Shown here one piece after another: positions 3,033 through 10,030 of a stretch of 10,317 bases of DNA. The first letter of the stretch is position 1. The number at the start of each line of letters is the position of its first letter. The notes below the pieces were generated by a model. It did not search any database. It worked only from the letters and a program-made list of their open reading frames with translations, and had not been told where the DNA came from. Source of the stretch: Gammaproteobacteria bacterium (lineage in GTDB: Bacteria > Pseudomonadota > Gammaproteobacteria > Eutrophobiales > Eutrophobiaceae); contig VYCZ01000326.1 in NCBI GenBank assembly GCA_009843675.1, forward strand, positions 1 through 10,317. The letters are read 5' to 3'. The position numbers were made by a program, and so were the translations under genes.

Positions 3033-3892
3033 CCGTTTTGCCGCGATATTTCCTCAAGGCCGCGCCTGACCAGCGCTTCCACCATCTGCCGCCGGTAGGC
3101 GCCTGTGGCGCGGAAGTCGTCGATGGGACGTGATTCCCTGGCCGCGGTCGCCGCCGCGGCATTGATGACGGCTTCATTCAGGGTTTCACCCCGGAGCAGG
3201 GATTCTGTTTCCGGCGTGCGCATGGCCACCGGCGCCACCGCGCCCAGGGCGATACGGGCCTGTTCCACTTTATTCTGCTCAAGTTTTACCGTCATGGCGA
3301 GGCTGACGATGGATATGGCGTCGGCCTTGCGCTTGCCCAGCTTGTAATAGAACCAGCGCTCATCCTCTGCCGGATGGGGAAATTCGATTGCGGTAAGCAG
3401 TTCGTCCGACCGCAGGGCGGTACTGCGCACGCCCCGGAAGAACTCCTGCAAGGGCAAGGTGCGGCGTCCGCGCGCGGCGCTGTCCAGTTCGGCCACGGCG
3501 TCCAGCGCCAGCAGCGGAGGGGAGATATCCGCGGCGGCTGAAGCATCGCACACGTTCCCACCTACCGTAGCCAGGTTGCGGATAAGCGGCCCGGCAAACG
3601 CCACGCACATGGGATGCATGAGGCCCTGGACTGCTCCCCCGGGGCGCCACTCGAGCAGTTCGGCAAAGGTGACGCCCGCGCCCAGGCGTACGCTGCCGTT
3701 GGTTTCCGATATCGGCGCCAGTTCCTCAAGGCCGGTCAGGTCCACTACCAGGTCGGCTTCCAGCGGCACGCGTTTCAGGTTCACCATGATGTTGGTGCCG
3801 CCCGCGAGGGGCACGACGCGGCCGCCTTGCGCCAGTGCCTGCAGGGCTTCCTGCAAATCCCCGGGGCGGGTGAATTCGAAATCGTTGGTCAT
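3029..3892 (-). CDS. FAD-binding subunit of a xanthine dehydrogenase/CO dehydrogenase family molybdenum hydroxylase (CoxM-like)
   Basis: This 287-residue protein has the length and motifs of the medium FAD subunit. AGGTN at 30-34 and TVGGNVCDASAAAD at 108-121 form the FAD pyrophosphate-binding loops (usual forms AGGT[ND] and GGN[IV]xxxSPxAD). The C-terminal domain begins near residue 180 with the KLGKRKADAISIVS pattern typical of the CO dehydrogenase flavoprotein C-terminal region. In this enzyme class, electrons from the molybdenum site pass through two [2Fe-2S] clusters to this FAD and on to NAD+, oxygen, a quinone or another acceptor. The start codon overlaps the end of the large-subunit gene by 4 bases (ATGA), as expected for subunits made in a fixed ratio. 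It is cytoplasmic; no signal peptide is visible. The physiological electron acceptor is unknown. Confidence 0.92.
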   Translation of the reverse strand: MTNDFEFTRPGDLQEALQALAQGGRVVPLAGGTNIMVNLKRVPLEADLVVDLTGLEELAPISETNGSVRLGAGVTFAELLEWRPGGAVQGLMHPMCVAFAGPLIRNLATVGGNVCDASAAADISPPLLALDAVAELDSAARGRRTLPLQEFFRGVRSTALRSDELLTAIEFPHPAEDERWFYYKLGKRKADAISIVSLAMTVKLEQNKVEQARIALGAVAPVAMRTPETESLLRGETLNEAVINAAAATAARESRPIDDFRATGAYRRQMVEALVRRGLEEISRQNG

Positions 3893-6645
3893 GTTTTGCG
3901 TTCGGCAATCAGCGCGGAAACCTGCTCCGGGGTCAGGGGCAGGCGCGAGACATCGACGTCCAGTGCGTCGGCCAGGGCATTGGCTATGGCGCCCGTCGGC
4001 GGCGCGATGGGGGGTTCGCCGACACCCTTGATACCCATGATGCCGTCAACTGCCGGCTGTTCCACCAGGATGGTCTGCGTCGGCGGCATGTCTTCGGCTG
4101 AAATCAGCAGGTAATCCGCAAAGCTCGGGTTCAGCACCTTGCCGTCCACTTCCCGCAGTTCCTCCATCATCGCCAGGCCCAGGCCCATGGCCACGCCGCC
4201 TTCTATCTGGCCTTCGCAGCCGGTCGGATTCACGGCCTTGCCGACGTCATGGACTGCGGCGTAACGTTTCAGGTCGATCTCGCCGGTCGTCTCATCCACG
4301 GCCAGTTCCACCGCGTGGGCGCAGAAACTGGGCGCCGGGAAGCCCCCGATGGGATGTTCTTTTGTCGTGGGAGGCTGGTCGTCCAGCAGGGAGGACACGC
4401 CGATCATCGGGCCGCCATGTTTCTTGTGGCGGTTGTAACAGATTTCAGCCAGGCCGATAGCGTTGCTCGGGTCGCCGCGCACAAAGACCCGGCCGTCTTT
4501 GAGCGCCATGTCATCCGGCGCCGCCTCCAGCCGGTCGGCGGCCTCATTCAGTAACTGGCGCTTGAGGTCAAGCGCCGCTTCATACGCGGAGCGGGCAATG
4601 GTAAAGGTCATCCGGCTGCCGCCGTGGCCGTGGTCCCAGGGCAGGGTGTCGGTGTCGCCGCGCACAAGCTGGATGGAATCAACCGGCACGCCGAGACCCT
4701 CGGCTGCCATCTGCAGCACGCTGCTGGTCAGGCCGCCGGTACCCATATCGACACAACCGGAAATGAGCCTGAAGGTGGCGTCTTCGTTGGTCTCGATCAG
4801 CGTCTGGGTACCCCATGTGCCGCTGACCCACCAGTTGCAGGCCAGGCCTTTGCCGGACCCCGGAGGGCAGGGCTTGTCCCATTCCACCGCGTCCGCGGCC
4901 TTCTGCAGGCACTCCTTCAGGCTGACCGCCGCCAGCGGTTGTCCCGTGCAGGTGGCGTCCCCGTCTTCCCAGGCATTCTTCAGCCGGAAGGACAGCCCAT
5001 CCATGCCGACCGCGCGCGCCACCTTGTCCATGTGAGTCTCCACCGCGAACGCCATCTGCGGTCCCGACGGGCAGCGGATGGAACCCTTGGGCACGTTATT
5101 GGTGTAGGTGACGAGACCGGTGATTTCCAGGTTGGGTATACGGTAAGGACCGCCGGCCATCAAGCTGCCCAGGGCCGCGGTATTGGGTCCGTAAGGCCCG
5201 TAAGCGCCGGTATTGAACAGCATGCGCACCTGGTGCGCGACCAGGGAGCCGTCTTTCATGACACCGGTTTTGATGCGCACCTTCGACGGGTGGCGCAGCA
5301 ACATTGCACCGGCCATCTCCTCGTCGCGGCTCAGGGTCATCTGCACCGGCAGTCCGGCCCGCTCCGCCAGCAACACAACATAGGGTTCAACGACGGGAAA
5401 CAGCTTGCCGCCGAACCCGCCGCCGATGTGGGTCGGCACGACCTTGAATGTACTGATGGGCCGTTTCAGCGCCTTTGCCAGGTAGCTGCGCACCGCGAAG
5501 GGTTTTTGCGTAGTGGTCCATACCGTGATACGGCCTGTCGGTTCCGTCATGGCCGTGGCGCTATGGGGTTCGATGGCGCCGGCATGGGCCTCCGGCGTAT
5601 GGTAGGTCCCCTCGACAACCTGGTCCGCTTCCGCAAATCCCTGCTCCACGTCGCCGTCGCCGAATTCCAGCCGGTAACACAGGTTGCCCTTGCGCTCCGA
5701 CTCCCAATCCAGTTGGTAGGCGTTCTGGTCCTCGTGCACCAGCGGCGCATCCTCGGACATCGCTTCCTCGGGGTCGAATACCGCGGGCAGTTCCTGGTAG
5801 TCGACCTTCACCAGCGCAGCCGCTTCCCGCGCCGCGTCGGGCGTGTCGGCCGCGACGGCAGCCACAGGTTCCCCCAAATAACGCACTTTTTCCAGGGCGA
5901 AGACGCGCTGGTCCTGCAGTTCGTAACCGTAGTATCCCATTTCAATGTCCCGGCCGGTGACCACCGCCCTGACGGCCGGGTGGTTTACCGCTGCCGACGT
6001 GTCGATGGACAGGATGGTGGCATGCGGGAACGGACTGCGCACGAGCGCGCCGTAGACCATGCGCGGCAGGCGCACGTCTTCGGCGTAGACCGCGCTGCCG
6101 GTGACCTTTTCCACCGCGTCGGTGCGCACCATGCGGGCGCCTATGGCGTCATCGTTACCGTTGGCGGCCTGCGTATCGAGCGTCCTGTCACGCAATGCCC
6201 GTGCGGCGTCGAAGATCTTGGTGTAACCGGTGCAGCGGCACAGGTTGCTGGATATCGCCACCCGGACTTCCTCCTCATCCGGCTCGGGGTTGCGGTTGAA
6301 CAGGTCTTTCAGGGACAGTACCATGCCCGGGGTGCAGAAACCGCACTGGATACCGCCGCATTGGACCATGGCCTGCTGCACCGGGTCCAGCGCGCCCGGC
6401 TTGCCCAGTCCCTCGATGGTGGTGATCTCCCGTCCCTCGGCCTGCAACGCCAGCACCATGCAGGAGTTTACGGCGTTGCCGTCCAGCAACACGGTGCAAC
6501 TGCCACAGTCCCCGGTGCCGCAGCCTTCTTTCGTGCCGATCAATCCGAGGTCGACGCGCAGGGCATCGAGCAGGCGGGTGCGCGGGGTGACGTCAATGGT
6601 CTCGGCGCGGCCGTTGACAGTGAAGTTAAGCCCCTTTTTTTTCAT
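3889..6645 (-). CDS. Molybdenum hydroxylase, fused [2Fe-2S] and molybdopterin-binding domains (xanthine dehydrogenase/aldehyde oxidoreductase family)
   Basis: This single 918-residue chain carries a plant-type ferredoxin domain (Cys42, 47, 50, 62), a four-helix [2Fe-2S] domain (Cys101, 104, 136, 138), and from about residue 170 the full molybdopterin-binding region. IGGGFGGK (407-414) is the cofactor loop, DMGTG (633-637) a further cofactor contact, and GVGEPP (874-879) places the catalytic glutamate at 877. Domain order and size match the Desulfovibrio aldehyde oxidoreductase Mop (about 907 residues), but here an FAD subunit gene follows, which Mop lacks. The active-site loop reads GSIRCPSGPQ (521-530): Arg524 is conserved, but Cys525 replaces the glycine common in xanthine dehydrogenases. 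Such enzymes hydroxylate aldehydes, purines or N-heteroaromatics with water-derived oxygen. The substrate is unknown. The start codon overlaps the hydrolase stop as ATGA and is followed by a run of eight A. No maturation chaperone (XdhC/CoxF type) lies nearby. Confidence 0.93.
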   Translation of the reverse strand: MKKKGLNFTVNGRAETIDVTPRTRLLDALRVDLGLIGTKEGCGTGDCGSCTVLLDGNAVNSCMVLALQAEGREITTIEGLGKPGALDPVQQAMVQCGGIQCGFCTPGMVLSLKDLFNRNPEPDEEEVRVAISSNLCRCTGYTKIFDAARALRDRTLDTQAANGNDDAIGARMVRTDAVEKVTGSAVYAEDVRLPRMVYGALVRSPFPHATILSIDTSAAVNHPAVRAVVTGRDIEMGYYGYELQDQRVFALEKVRYLGEPVAAVAADTPDAAREAAALVKVDYQELPAVFDPEEAMSEDAPLVHEDQNAYQLDWESERKGNLCYRLEFGDGDVEQGFAEADQVVEGTYHTPEAHAGAIEPHSATAMTEPTGRITVWTTTQKPFAVRSYLAKALKRPISTFKVVPTHIGGGFGGKLFPVVEPYVVLLAERAGLPVQMTLSRDEEMAGAMLLRHPSKVRIKTGVMKDGSLVAHQVRMLFNTGAYGPYGPNTAALGSLMAGGPYRIPNLEITGLVTYTNNVPKGSIRCPSGPQMAFAVETHMDKVARAVGMDGLSFRLKNAWEDGDATCTGQPLAAVSLKECLQKAADAVEWDKPCPPGSGKGLACNWWVSGTWGTQTLIETNEDATFRLISGCVDMGTGGLTSSVLQMAAEGLGVPVDSIQLVRGDTDTLPWDHGHGGSRMTFTIARSAYEAALDLKRQLLNEAADRLEAAPDDMALKDGRVFVRGDPSNAIGLAEICYNRHKKHGGPMIGVSSLLDDQPPTTKEHPIGGFPAPSFCAHAVELAVDETTGEIDLKRYAAVHDVGKAVNPTGCEGQIEGGVAMGLGLAMMEELREVDGKVLNPSFADYLLISAEDMPPTQTILVEQPAVDGIMGIKGVGEPPIAPPTGAIANALADALDVDVSRLPLTPEQVSALIAERKT

Positions 6646-7529
6646 TGCAGGTATCTGCGTACCGCCTTCAGCACCAGGGGCCAGGTGGTGCTGTTCGGAT
6701 TGATGACTTCGAAATGGCCGGATTCAGAGGCCATCACGCGTTCTATCGTGTCATCGCCGATGGCGCGGGCAGCGGTCACGTAGGCTTCGCCGAAAGGCGT
6801 CCAGTCTGTATCGTGCACACCCATCAGCGCGGTGTGCCTGACGCCGATAGGAGCCATACGCGCCGGTTCGACGTAGGCATAACGGTCGGGATGCTCATCC
6901 GGCGATCCGTGCATCAGCCTGTCTATCACGTTGTCGCAGGTACCCTGCTGGTGCAATTGCGTGAGCGCCGCAGCCGGTGCCAGCGCTACGACGCCCGCCG
7001 GCAGCAGTGGATCAGCCAGGTATAAATCGTGGTCAGAAGGAATTTTTGCCCGAGCCCCGGCCCATAGCGCCAGGTGACCGCCGGCGGAATGTCCCATCAC
7101 GACTACCTGCGTAACGTCGAGCGGATAATCCGTGGCCAGGGTCTTCACATGATCGATACCCGAACCGATGTCAAGCAAGAGGCCCGGATAGGTGCCGCCC
7201 GGGTTGCCTACCCGGCGGTATTCCAGGTTCCATACCGCGATGCCCTCGTCCCGGAGCGCCCAGGCCAGGGGCCGGGTGGTGGTGATGTCATACATGGCCA
7301 GCCAGCAACCGCCGTGAATGAATACGACGACCGGGAACGGCCCGTCACCCTCGGGGACGTGGAGTTCGCCGAATTGCAACGGGTCGCTGCCGTAGTCAAT
7401 CTTCGCTCCCGGTTCGCCTGCAGACAACTGCGCCAGCAGGTCTTCCACCGTCATGATGTCCGCCTGTGCGGTGAACAGCCCCGAGCAGAGCCAGAGGACC
7501 AGCGCGCCAAGTCTGTATTTCAGTTTCAT
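6642..7529 (-). CDS. Exported alpha/beta hydrolase (esterase or kynurenine-formamidase-like)
   Basis: This 295-residue protein begins with a good signal peptide: basic MKLKYR, a hydrophobic core to about residue 18, and a cleavage site after AQA at residue 23. Mature sequence has the oxyanion-hole motif HGGCW (72-76), the nucleophile elbow GHSAGG with Ser148, an acid candidate Asp240 (or Asp242), and His272 in GHFEVINP. The EYRRVG and GGTYPG segments (103-116) are typical of the BD-FAE/kynurenine-formamidase-like and carboxylesterase group that cleaves esters or amides. The likely location is the periplasm. Start is ATG with a strong GGGGAGG ribosome binding site 5 bases upstream. It is the first gene of the operon, and its stop overlaps the molybdenum hydroxylase start (ATGA). 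Inferred role: freeing the acid, aldehyde or heterocycle that the cytoplasmic enzymes then use. Substrate unknown. Confidence 0.88.
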   Translation of the reverse strand: MKLKYRLGALVLWLCSGLFTAQADIMTVEDLLAQLSAGEPGAKIDYGSDPLQFGELHVPEGDGPFPVVVFIHGGCWLAMYDITTTRPLAWALRDEGIAVWNLEYRRVGNPGGTYPGLLLDIGSGIDHVKTLATDYPLDVTQVVVMGHSAGGHLALWAGARAKIPSDHDLYLADPLLPAGVVALAPAAALTQLHQQGTCDNVIDRLMHGSPDEHPDRYAYVEPARMAPIGVRHTALMGVHDTDWTPFGEAYVTAARAIGDDTIERVMASESGHFEVINPNSTTWPLVLKAVRRYLQ

Positions 7530-7534
7530 TGTTT

Positions 7535-7541
7535 CCTCCCC
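7535..7541 (-). promoter_or_regulatory. Strong ribosome binding site of the catabolic operon
   Basis: On the minus strand this reads GGGGAGG, 5 bases before the hydrolase ATG. It is the only clear Shine-Dalgarno sequence in the four-gene operon; the three later genes lack good ones and start at ATGA overlaps, so their translation probably depends on this site. Confidence 0.75.
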
Positions 7542-7640
7542 TTATGTCGGGCAGTTTATTTTCTTTAACATATTGTGACGAGTCGACCGGACGCCAACCT
7601 GCACGCCGTTATATTACTATCTTTTTCTGTTACTTTCTTT

Positions 7641-7649
7641 TGTCATAAT
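7641..7649 (+). promoter_or_regulatory. Candidate extended -10 promoter for hflX
   Basis: TGTCATAAT fits the extended -10 pattern TGnTATAAT with one mismatch. The -35 position (around 7621-7626, CTTTTT) is poor, which extended -10 promoters tolerate. Transcription would start near 7656, giving a leader of about 48 bases before the proposed hflX start at 7704. Alternatively TTGTCA at 7640-7645 could be a -35, but nothing good sits 16-18 bases downstream. Confidence 0.35.
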
Positions 7650-7687
7650 CCCCGTATATGATTCAATGACACGGTTTCCACCAAGAC

Positions 7688-7694
7688 AGGAGGG
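7688..7694 (+). promoter_or_regulatory. Ribosome binding site before a proposed non-ATG hflX start
   Basis: AGGAGGG is a near-perfect Shine-Dalgarno sequence, 9-10 bases before the in-frame ATT at 7704. No ATG, GTG or TTG lies in the hflX frame between the upstream stop (7659-7661) and GTG 7803, so this site is the main evidence that translation begins here at a rare codon. Confidence 0.5.
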
Positions 7695-7703
7695 TATACA
7701 AGA

Positions 7704-8816
7704 ATTAATACGGTTGACACAGTTCTCCGGGACAGGCCGCGCGCCATTCTCGTTCATATCAATTTTCAAAACCGGCGTTACAATGAAGAACTGCAGGAAT
7801 TCGTGCAGTTGACCGGGTCTTCGGGGCTGGTGCCTTCCGATACGATTACCGGGAACCGTACCAGGCCGGACGCCAAATTTTTTATCGGTTCCGGTAAAGT
7901 GGAGCAAATCAGGCAGTCAGCCGCGGCCCATGATGCGGATATCGTGATATTCAATCACGGATTATCCCCGGCCCAGGAGCGTAACCTTGAAAAGGAGATA
8001 AATTGCCGGGTGCTCGACCGTGTCGGCCTGATCCTTGATATTTTCTCCCAGCGGGCCAGGACCTATGAGGGCAAACTGCAGGTTGAACTGGCGCAATTGC
8101 AGCACTTGTCCACACGCCTGGTCAGGGGCTGGTCGCACCTGGAAAGACAAAAAGGCGGTATCGGCCTGAGGGGGCCCGGAGAAACCCAGCTCGAAACGGA
8201 CAGGCGCCTGATCGGCAAGCGCATCAAAACGATCCGCGGCCGGCTCGACAAGGTAAAAAGCCGGAGGGAGCAGGGCAGGAGGTTGCGGCGGCGCAATAAT
8301 GCCGCCGTCGTATCCCTGGTGGGCTATACCAACGCCGGGAAGTCCACACTGTTCAACCGCCTGACCGGCGCGGACGTCTATTGCGCCGACAAACTCTTCG
8401 CTACCCTGGACCCGACTATCAGGAAATCCCGCCTGACAGATGAACTATCGGTGCTTTTCAGTGATACGGTGGGTTTTATCCGCCATATCCCGCATGACCT
8501 TGTGGAGTCTTTCCATGCCACCCTGGATGAGATAAAAGGCGCTAACCTGCTGTTGCATGTGATTGATATCAATGATGATCATCGGTCGCGCATAGACGAA
8601 GTGAACCAGGTGATTGAAGAGCTTGGCGCAACCGCCATTCCCCAGATACTCGTATTCAATAAAATCGACCAGGCCGGCAACGGGCATGGCAACGGGCATG
8701 CGCAGGCAAGGACCGAGCACGGCATCAACGGCAGTTGCGCACGCGCATGGGTATCCGCCCTCACCGGCGCCGGTATCCCGGAGCTGGAGCGTCTCATACA
8801 CAGTGAACTCGGCTGA
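7704..8816 (+). CDS. hflX: GTPase HflX, apparently with a non-canonical start codon
   Basis: HflX is a cytoplasmic ribosome-binding GTPase that splits stalled or stress-damaged ribosomes. From ATT 7704 it has 370 residues. The N-terminal strand RAILVHINF (13-21) aligns with QAVLVHIYF of E. coli HflX. LSPAQERNLE (88-97) and the HflX signature GGIGLRGPGETQLETDRR (151-168) follow. The GTPase motifs are GYTNAGKST (207-215), DTVGF (254-258), NKID (319-322) and SAL (351-353). The start is uncertain. GTG 7803 would remove the first 33 residues, including the conserved strand, and has only a weak AGGA site; no ATG, GTG or TTG exists upstream in frame. ATT 7704 has a strong ribosome binding site. The protein ends soon after the G5 motif, so it lacks the roughly 55-residue C-terminal domain of E. 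coli HflX (426 residues). A 12-base tandem repeat lies after NKID. hflK follows 71 bases later. Confidence 0.92.
   Translation: MNTVDTVLRDRPRAILVHINFQNRRYNEELQEFVQLTGSSGLVPSDTITGNRTRPDAKFFIGSGKVEQIRQSAAAHDADIVIFNHGLSPAQERNLEKEINCRVLDRVGLILDIFSQRARTYEGKLQVELAQLQHLSTRLVRGWSHLERQKGGIGLRGPGETQLETDRRLIGKRIKTIRGRLDKVKSRREQGRRLRRRNNAAVVSLVGYTNAGKSTLFNRLTGADVYCADKLFATLDPTIRKSRLTDELSVLFSDTVGFIRHIPHDLVESFHATLDEIKGANLLLHVIDINDDHRSRIDEVNQVIEELGATAIPQILVFNKIDQAGNGHGNGHAQARTEHGINGSCARAWVSALTGAGIPELERLIHSELG
8676..8699 (+). repeat. Perfect 12-base tandem repeat within hflX
   Basis: GGCAACGGGCAT occurs twice in a row. The unit is four codons long and keeps the frame, giving the peptide GNGHGNGH just after the NKID guanine-specificity motif. 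This part of HflX is a surface segment between G4 and G5 where length varies, so an in-frame duplication is probably tolerated. Confidence 0.85.
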
Positions 8817-8887: not shown

Positions 8888-10030
8888 ATGAGTTGGAATG
8901 AGCCACCGGATAATAGAGGTCAGGACCCCTGGGGCAACCGGGGCAGGGGGGAAGGTCCGCCTGACCTGGATGATATCATTCGCAAGATGCAGGAGGGCTT
9001 CGGCGGGCTGTTCGGCGGGAAGCCGTCCAGGCAGAAGAAAGAGCGCAAGGGCTTCCCGTTCTCCTGGCTGATCGTCGTAATCGTACTGGTGCTGCTGCTG
9101 TTGGTGGACATCACCTACCTGGTGGACCAGCAGGAACGCGGCGTGGTGCTGCGTTTCGGCAAGTATGAGAGAATCCTGCAGCCGGGTCTGAATTTCGTCT
9201 TTCCGAGTCTGATTGACAGGGTGGTAACGTTGAACGTCGGCCAGGTGCGCTCCATCACCCATAAAGCTTCAATGCTGACCCAGGATGAAAACATCGTGGA
9301 CGTGGAGGTGGCTGTGCAGTGGCGCATCGTTGACCCTGCGGACTTTATCTTCAACGTGAAAGACCCGGCGTTGACGTTGCGCCAGGTCGCGGAGAGCGCG
9401 GTACGCGCGATTATCGGCCAGAGCAAACTGGATTATGTGCTGACCGAGGGCCGCAGCGAGATCGCCCAGCAGCAACAGTTGCTGATGCAGGAAATACTCA
9501 TTGAAGACTACAGGTCGGGCATTCTGGTCGTCACTGTTGAAATGCAGCCGGCCAAGCCGCCGGAGGCGGTAAAGGCAGCGTTTGACGATGCCATCAAGGC
9601 CAGGGAGGATGAGCAGCGCCTGGTCAACGAGGCGGAAGCCTATCGAAACGACATCCTGCCCAGGGCACGCGGCGCCGCGGCCCGGGTGCGTGAAGAGGCA
9701 AGCGCGTACAAGGCCTCTGTCATAGCCAGGTCAGAAGGTGATGCGGCGCGATTTGAGCAGTTACTGACCGAGTATGAACGGGCGCCGGAAATCACCAGAA
9801 AGCGCCTGTACCTGGAATCCATTGAGTCTGTCATGTCCGGCACCAACAAGGTATTGATGGACGCCGAAGGGGGGAACAGCCTGATGTACCTGCCCCTGGA
9901 TAAACTGATGCAACCCCGCAGTTCGGGCACACTGAACCTGCCCCGGGGAACCAATAACGACAGCCCAGCGTCCCAGACCGTGAGAGACATCGCTGAGCGC
10001 GCCGCCAACCGGGCGCGGGGAGCAAGATAA
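8888..10030 (+). CDS. hflK: HflK, membrane subunit of the HflKC modulator of FtsH
   Basis: This 380-residue SPFH/prohibitin-family protein pairs with HflC to form a large cage around the membrane protease FtsH and modulates its action on membrane substrates. The N-terminus is the typical HflK form: MSWNEPP, then a Gly/Pro/Asp-rich tail with DPWG and PPDLDDIIRKMQ (24-35). One membrane segment follows at about 57-79 (starting PFSWLIVVIVL), then the SPFH domain from VDQQERGVVLRFGKYERI (79-96), with the conserved LRQVAESAVRAIIGQ and EIAQQQQ stretches. A long Ala/Glu/Arg-rich helix (about 235-310) and a flexible Pro/Ser/Asn-rich tail end the protein. The start is ATG with AGAGG 9 bases upstream. 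Length is somewhat less than E. coli HflK (419). hflC begins 2 bases after the stop. Confidence 0.96.
   Translation: MSWNEPPDNRGQDPWGNRGRGEGPPDLDDIIRKMQEGFGGLFGGKPSRQKKERKGFPFSWLIVVIVLVLLLLVDITYLVDQQERGVVLRFGKYERILQPGLNFVFPSLIDRVVTLNVGQVRSITHKASMLTQDENIVDVEVAVQWRIVDPADFIFNVKDPALTLRQVAESAVRAIIGQSKLDYVLTEGRSEIAQQQQLLMQEILIEDYRSGILVVTVEMQPAKPPEAVKAAFDDAIKAREDEQRLVNEAEAYRNDILPRARGAAARVREEASAYKASVIARSEGDAARFEQLLTEYERAPEITRKRLYLESIESVMSGTNKVLMDAEGGNSLMYLPLDKLMQPRSSGTLNLPRGTNNDSPASQTVRDIAERAANRARGAR

Follow-up and report, generated by a model that had tools for sequence, protein, structure and literature searches.

In Escherichia coli, translation of infC, the gene for IF3, and of pcnB is initiated at AUU, and infC is translationally controlled through this codon, according to the available text of PMC1780047. 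AUU is described as being discriminated against by IF3 and UUG as being tolerated, in the accessible part of the source, and GUU lies outside that statement. In Staphylococcus aureus, AUU and AUA starts behind strong Shine-Dalgarno sequences support, in poor medium, about 10% of the yield obtained with AUG (PMC13009471, in the portion available). The full length of another ribosome-associated GTPase, different from HflX, has been proposed to require AUU; the part of the report that was accessible does not mention conservation of the codon. The hflX gene of E. coli K-12 is annotated from a weak codon as well, reading TTG TTT GAC CGT after GAGGG (NC_000913.3, 4400672; L323 473-475).

The window (the whole stretch of 10,317 nucleotides that was analysed) contains an hflX gene that resembles infC and pcnB, as presented in the available text of PMC1780047, in lacking a standard start codon (ATG, GTG or TTG) and having an AUU codon. 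For those two genes the use of AUU has been reported, whereas here we infer it, and the hflX codon varies, being ATT or GTT in some genomes and a standard codon in some relatives. As with infC and pcnB, no standard codon usable for the conserved N-terminus was found in the window and in four of the six other genomes of the genus. The infC genes of the family themselves have AUC, AUU or AUA behind a GGAGG-type Shine-Dalgarno sequence, at what we take from the known gene to be the usual start place, in all 22 usable loci of the 30 given (L156-L185; six had no motif match and two matched a neighbouring gene). The infC codon varies between genera, and at some loci standard codons occur upstream of this place or a few codons after it. 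A search found no infC in the incomplete assembly of the window or in G002. The S. aureus genes cvfC1 (AUU) and ccpN (AUA) resemble hflX in that a non-standard start is conserved in relatives together with a strong Shine-Dalgarno sequence; unlike that of hflX, their starts were mapped by Ribo-Ret, and the genes are unrelated to it (PMC13009471, in the portion available). The E. coli hflX gene shares with that of the window a weak start codon, with GAGGG before it, but its UUG is canonical for IF3, hfq lies upstream and the protein has 426 residues. The features of the window are as follows.

7659..7661, + strand: in-frame stop TGA, the upstream boundary of the hflX frame
7688..7694, + strand: Shine-Dalgarno-like AGGAGGG, 9 nucleotides 5' of ATT
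7704..8816, + strand: hflX, predicted ribosome-splitting GTPase HflX, from the proposed AUU start to the stop, 370 codons plus stop (matches to TIGR03156, NF008280, Pfam domains and E. coli chains 7yla/5ady)
7704..7706, + strand: proposed start codon ATT; four relatives within the genus have ATT or GTT at the aligned place
7713..7715, + strand: codon 4 (GTT), predicted site of the ancestral UUG start, placed by ungapped codon alignment by eye; TTG in OY282354 and E. coli
7740..7802, + strand: codons 13-33, the first beta strand and the next helix, under purifying selection though 5' of the first standard start
7803..7805, + strand: first in-frame GTG (codon 34), chosen by a mechanical gene call; a start here loses strand 1
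8888..10030, + strand: hflK, the downstream neighbour, with an ATG start; control for start-codon use

Read from the ATT (codon 1 in the numbering used here), the product has 370 residues and scores 469.8 bits against TIGR03156 (cut-off 216.75) and 477.3 bits against NF008280 (cut-off 441). The N, M and G domains of HflX are all found (PF13167, PF16360 and PF01926). The E. coli chains 7yla/5ady match residues 13-365 with E. coli residues 10-357 of 426, and the C-terminal part of the E. coli protein, after about residue 357, is absent. The protein covers NF008280 to position 355 of 426 and TIGR03156 to 350 of 351; the latter model thus does not need the missing part. HflX in the genus of the window is shorter at the C-terminus, 370 residues as against 426 in E. 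coli, and the open frames of hflX in other genera of the family have 427-478 codons, except in G028 (333) and G021 (380). The gene is present in a single copy in the assembly, the second match being 31% identical over part of the G domain. HflX proteins split ribosomes that are stuck, and splitting of the 70S ribosome with GTP is the function predicted from the family assignment. Elsewhere in the window (3889-6645, minus strand) an open reading frame of 918 residues resembles fused 2Fe-2S and molybdenum-binding subunits; we take it, from its sequence, to be of the xanthine dehydrogenase kind. The hosts of the organisms are presumably sponges, a guess made from the isolate names.

From 7662 the hflX frame continues without interruption until a stop whose last base is 8816; its earliest ATG, GTG or TTG is the GTG at 7803, followed by a TTG at 7809 (codon 36). 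Re-reading of the coordinates bore out the preliminary description on this point and on the AGGAGGG preceding the in-frame ATT, the spacer (7695-7703) being 9 nucleotides long. The ATT also lies, as had been proposed, near the place where E. coli HflX starts: residue 13 here is aligned to residue 10 of the E. coli protein, whose M1 therefore corresponds to codon 4. Within the window alone, the missing start and the pairing of a Shine-Dalgarno sequence with ATT are not beyond chance, and the weight of the argument comes from other genomes. Start-type codons make up 5% of the remainder of hflX, so that 47 codons without one have, in the window alone, a probability of about 0.09. AGGAGGG occurs twice in the window against 1.27 expected, with 77 of 200 shuffles reaching two, and AGGAGG followed by ATT at 4-12 nucleotides occurs twice against 0.54 expected (21 of 200 shuffles).

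Seven genomes of the genus, including that of the window, were compared. Five of them lack ATG, GTG and TTG from the in-frame stop to the conserved first strand; the other two have TTG (OY282354) and ATG (CAR2_bin_11, in TAA CGG ATG right before the strand, at residue 11 and at a contig end). The codon aligned with 7704 is ATT in the window, RHO3_bin_19, jk18x1bzbins.61 and APA_bin_93, hence in three of the six relatives, and GTT in one, Plut_88898. A Shine-Dalgarno-like motif stands 7-9 nucleotides 5' of codon 1 in all five: AGGAGGG at 9 nucleotides in the window, RHO3 and jk18x1 and at 7 nucleotides in Plut_88898, and GAGGG at 9 nucleotides in APA_bin_93. A non-standard codon with a strong Shine-Dalgarno sequence at working distance is thus conserved in five of the seven genomes, and codon 1 alone before codon 13 combines NUU in all five with that distance. 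The earlier suggestions of a sequencing error or of a mutation in this strain alone do not survive the comparison, since three named MAGs, from different assemblies to judge by the names of their contigs, share the ATT of the window, and GTT takes its place in a fifth genome. Deletion of a G from an ancestral TTG at codon 1 (TTGAAT to TTAAT) was also considered and was dropped because the ungapped codon alignment and the E. coli chain match both place the old TTG at codon 4. A start at ATT 7704 appears by comparison to be the best reading, as had been suggested. In Plut_88898 an in-frame TAA immediately precedes the GTT, so that in-frame initiation further upstream is impossible there. This GTT is one base from GTG and two bases from ATG, and no codon between the in-frame stop and codon 13 of that genome is one base from ATG. 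Translation in Plut_88898 would thus begin either at a very weak codon or downstream, or the codon has been misread.

Selection on the stretch upstream of GTG 7803 shows where translation probably begins. Six genomes form 15 pairs, and in 14 of them pN/pS for codons 13-33 lies between 0.06 and 0.26; the exception is window-RHO3, with no non-synonymous and two synonymous changes. The same range holds for the nine other pairs among the five genomes that lack a standard start. Summed over RHO3-jk18 and APA-Plut, which are two independent pairs among these five genomes, the changes affect 4 of about 100 non-synonymous sites and 11 of about 26 synonymous ones (Fisher p = 3e-6). Codons 34-120 give 0.05-0.24, and 0 for the closest pair. 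Codons 13-33 are therefore under purifying selection between lineages and hence probably translated, which probably places the start no later than codon 13. Constraint on codons 2-12 is loose (pN/pS 0.29-1.5, at few sites), so that codon 1 itself is not fixed by selection.

This constraint bears directly on the main rival explanation, translation from GTG 7803 or TTG 7809, by which the HflX of the genus would be without strand 1 and a portion of helix 1. No standard start codon comes earlier in the frame than these two; GTG 34 is kept in all five genomes without a standard start upstream, with AGGA 4 nucleotides 5' of it in the window, RHO3 and jk18x1, and the truncated protein still exceeds both HflX cut-offs, at 451.4 and 450.9 bits. 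The closest listed protein clusters seem to point the same way: among the 43 closest (P0001-P0043) of 120 listed, the call starts at residue 15 or beyond in 25, many of them at residue 34 or 36, as against none of the next 18 (P0044-P0061), which are called from residues -1 to 8. However, AGGA is replaced by ACGA in APA_bin_93 and Plut_88898, and a pN/pS of 0-0.26 over codons 13-33 is unexpected for an untranslated stretch, which makes a start at GTG or TTG appear unlikely. The contrast between the 43 clusters and the next 18 counts for the AUU start as well. The called starts are weak evidence for any one cluster, because errors can arise from gene callers and at contig ends. For the 18 remaining clusters of these 43, the calls begin at residues -28 to 11. 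P0001 retains Ile at codon 1; in P0002 and P0008 the residue that aligns with it by eye is Met (MATLNSAS, compared with VNTLNTAS of Plut_88898), and P0018 and P0019 begin at the same Met as CAR2_bin_11. A quick tree was built from 54 rows, made up of the 43 clusters, the seven genomes and an outgroup of four. On it the label for a late call or a missing standard start requires at least nine changes, as against a mean of 17.9 when shuffled, and none of 500 shuffles was as low; well-supported branches force one change only. On our reading of the tree, the state without a standard start would have persisted, and standard starts would have been regained at several residues.

Initiation at some other non-standard codon of the N-terminal tail, such as codon 4, is very unlikely. 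Codon 4 is the former place of the ancestral UUG and is now CTG in APA_bin_93, CTC in Plut_88898 and GTT in both the window and RHO3, and in some genomes a single base separates ATG from ACG at codon 3 and from AGG at codon 11 as well. Yet codon 4 is GCA in jk18x1bzbins.61 and stands 18 nucleotides from AGGAGGG in the window, and the remaining aligned tail codons differ from ATG by one base in at most four genomes and do not lie at Shine-Dalgarno distance. It can be considered highly improbable that ribosomes reach hflX from an overlapping frame or one upstream, through reinitiation or frameshifting. Such a route would be compatible with RHO3_bin_19 and jk18x1bzbins.61 (L054, L055, 3955-4005), in which a 16-codon open reading frame has its ATG 46 nucleotides before the ATT and a TAA overlapping it (AATTAA), and with APA_bin_93, where a frame of 268 codons ends about 50 nucleotides upstream. 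In the window, however, the small frame is reduced to three codons (ATGATTCAATGA), and the 70 nucleotides read in Plut_88898 contain no ATG for it; it is not conserved and was accordingly discarded as a leader element. The TTG at 7714, in another frame, is missing from jk18x1bzbins.61 and APA_bin_93. There is little reason to believe that hflX is decaying after loss of its start, although the start change accompanies the separation from hfq and the C-terminal part is missing too: there is no internal stop in any of the seven genomes, and codons 34-120 show the constraint given above.

The start seems to have changed together with the surroundings of the gene. In OY282354, as in E. coli, hfq lies upstream of hflX, and an open reading frame that we take from its sequence to be miaA precedes hfq. 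In the other six genomes, that of the window included, hfq is on a different contig from hflX, and in the genome of the window, G001 and G005 no hflX is found within about 1.4 kb after hfq. The order hfq-hflX-hflK, which is common but not required, is broken in the window, where hflK follows hflX and hfq is elsewhere. Upstream of hflX there is a divergent open reading frame, presumably of an esterase to judge from its sequence, in the window, RHO3, jk18x1 and Plut; APA has two further frames there, and the contig of CAR2_bin_11 ends. The idea that the start was lost at a rearrangement breakpoint thus holds in part, in that hflX became separated from hfq in this lineage. The old UUG at codon 4 seems to have decayed, the likely site of initiation now being three codons upstream, behind a strong Shine-Dalgarno sequence.

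Outside the genus, the 43 matched genomes of the family (3 of 53 family genomes gave no match at 1e-60) have TTG only in 37 cases, GTG and TTG in two, GTG only in two and ATG available in two, where "available" means any in-frame start codon between the stop and the strand, not necessarily one that is used. A search of 232 genomes gave 197 matched genomes outside the family, of which 107, mostly the better-scoring ones, make up the class sample. The 105 classifiable genomes have TTG only in 55, ATG available in 25, GTG only in 18, GTG and TTG in six and none in one. A second set was taken from the 80 best named loci by dropping six of the genus and two of the family, which left 72. In this set, which leans to well-matching lineages and shares some genomes with the class sample, ATG is available in 33, with TTG only in 22, GTG only in 10, both in six and none in one. 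These counts show that a weak hflX start, predicted to be UUG, is ancestral: it is usual in the family and commonest in the class sample. A genome-wide habit of weak starts was not seen for hflK, the one control gene counted. Of its 27 matches in 32 loci (30 of the genus or family and two of the class; five without a match), 26 start with ATG and one with TTG, and in L060-L133 (74 searched) ATG is found in 50 of 51 motif matches, the 51st being an evident false match. Judged against this single control gene, the weak start so belongs to hflX. Two loci lack a standard start before the strand, L123 (3932-3946, an Ectothiorhodospiraceae MAG), with ATC 6 nucleotides after AGGAGG, and L265 of the class sample, with CTG or CTA; they are leads for independent non-standard hflX starts. 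The literature, in the part covered, yielded no report of a non-AUG start of a gammaproteobacterial hflX, and such a report may exist elsewhere.

The leader was searched for other elements. Positions 7400-7900 gave no match to Rfam with E up to 1, a scan found no sigma-70-like promoter, and the leader folds no better than shuffled sequences (z of 0.52, -0.45, -0.44, 0.96 and 0.82). An inverted repeat, CCGTAT/ATACGG (7652-7713 in the window), would pair across the ATT start; it is present in RHO3 and jk18x1 as well and absent from Plut_88898.

Assuming that the AUU is used, the following sequence of events can be proposed. Separation of hflX from hfq would have given the gene a new leader with a strong Shine-Dalgarno sequence, with initiation shifting to a site three codons before the old UUG and the UUG decaying thereafter. 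The Shine-Dalgarno sequence would position the 30S subunit so that AUU, or GUU in the one relative, occupies the P site, where the initiator tRNA would read AUU as fMet. IF3 would discriminate against this codon, with the effect that HflX is kept scarce. It is likely, from the comparison of genomes, that HflX is translated from the AUU at 7704 (GUU in one relative), selected by the strong Shine-Dalgarno sequence 9 nucleotides upstream, with a full-length N-terminal domain and a low yield. GUU initiates worse than AUU. UUG being tolerated by IF3 and AUU discriminated against, hflX would have switched its start class if AUU is used. Control of HflX by IF3 is possible, a plausible extrapolation from the codon, and low yield alone may be the selected trait. 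In resuscitating E. coli, newly made HflX is estimated to be about 100 times below ribosomal proteins, RaiA and Sra, in the available text of PMC8407246.

In many members of the genus, the late-called clusters suggest, automatic annotation cuts about 33 residues from HflX. The lineages that keep non-standard codons differ by up to about 18% in HflX, and the standard starts of their relatives lie at several places. It is doubtful, though conceivable, that weak initiation is a selected and ancient property of hflX in Gammaproteobacteria and that this genus crossed from the UUG to the AUU/GUU class, tying the level of the ribosome splitter to IF3 activity, while standard starts were repeatedly lost and regained. 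To our knowledge, few conserved AUU starts are known. The start of hflX would be one whose evolution can be traced, from an ancestral UUG through the split from hfq and the gain of a strong Shine-Dalgarno sequence to non-standard codons. The pattern across the sampled Gammaproteobacteria is that hflX often appears to avoid AUG, whereas the adjacent hflK does not.
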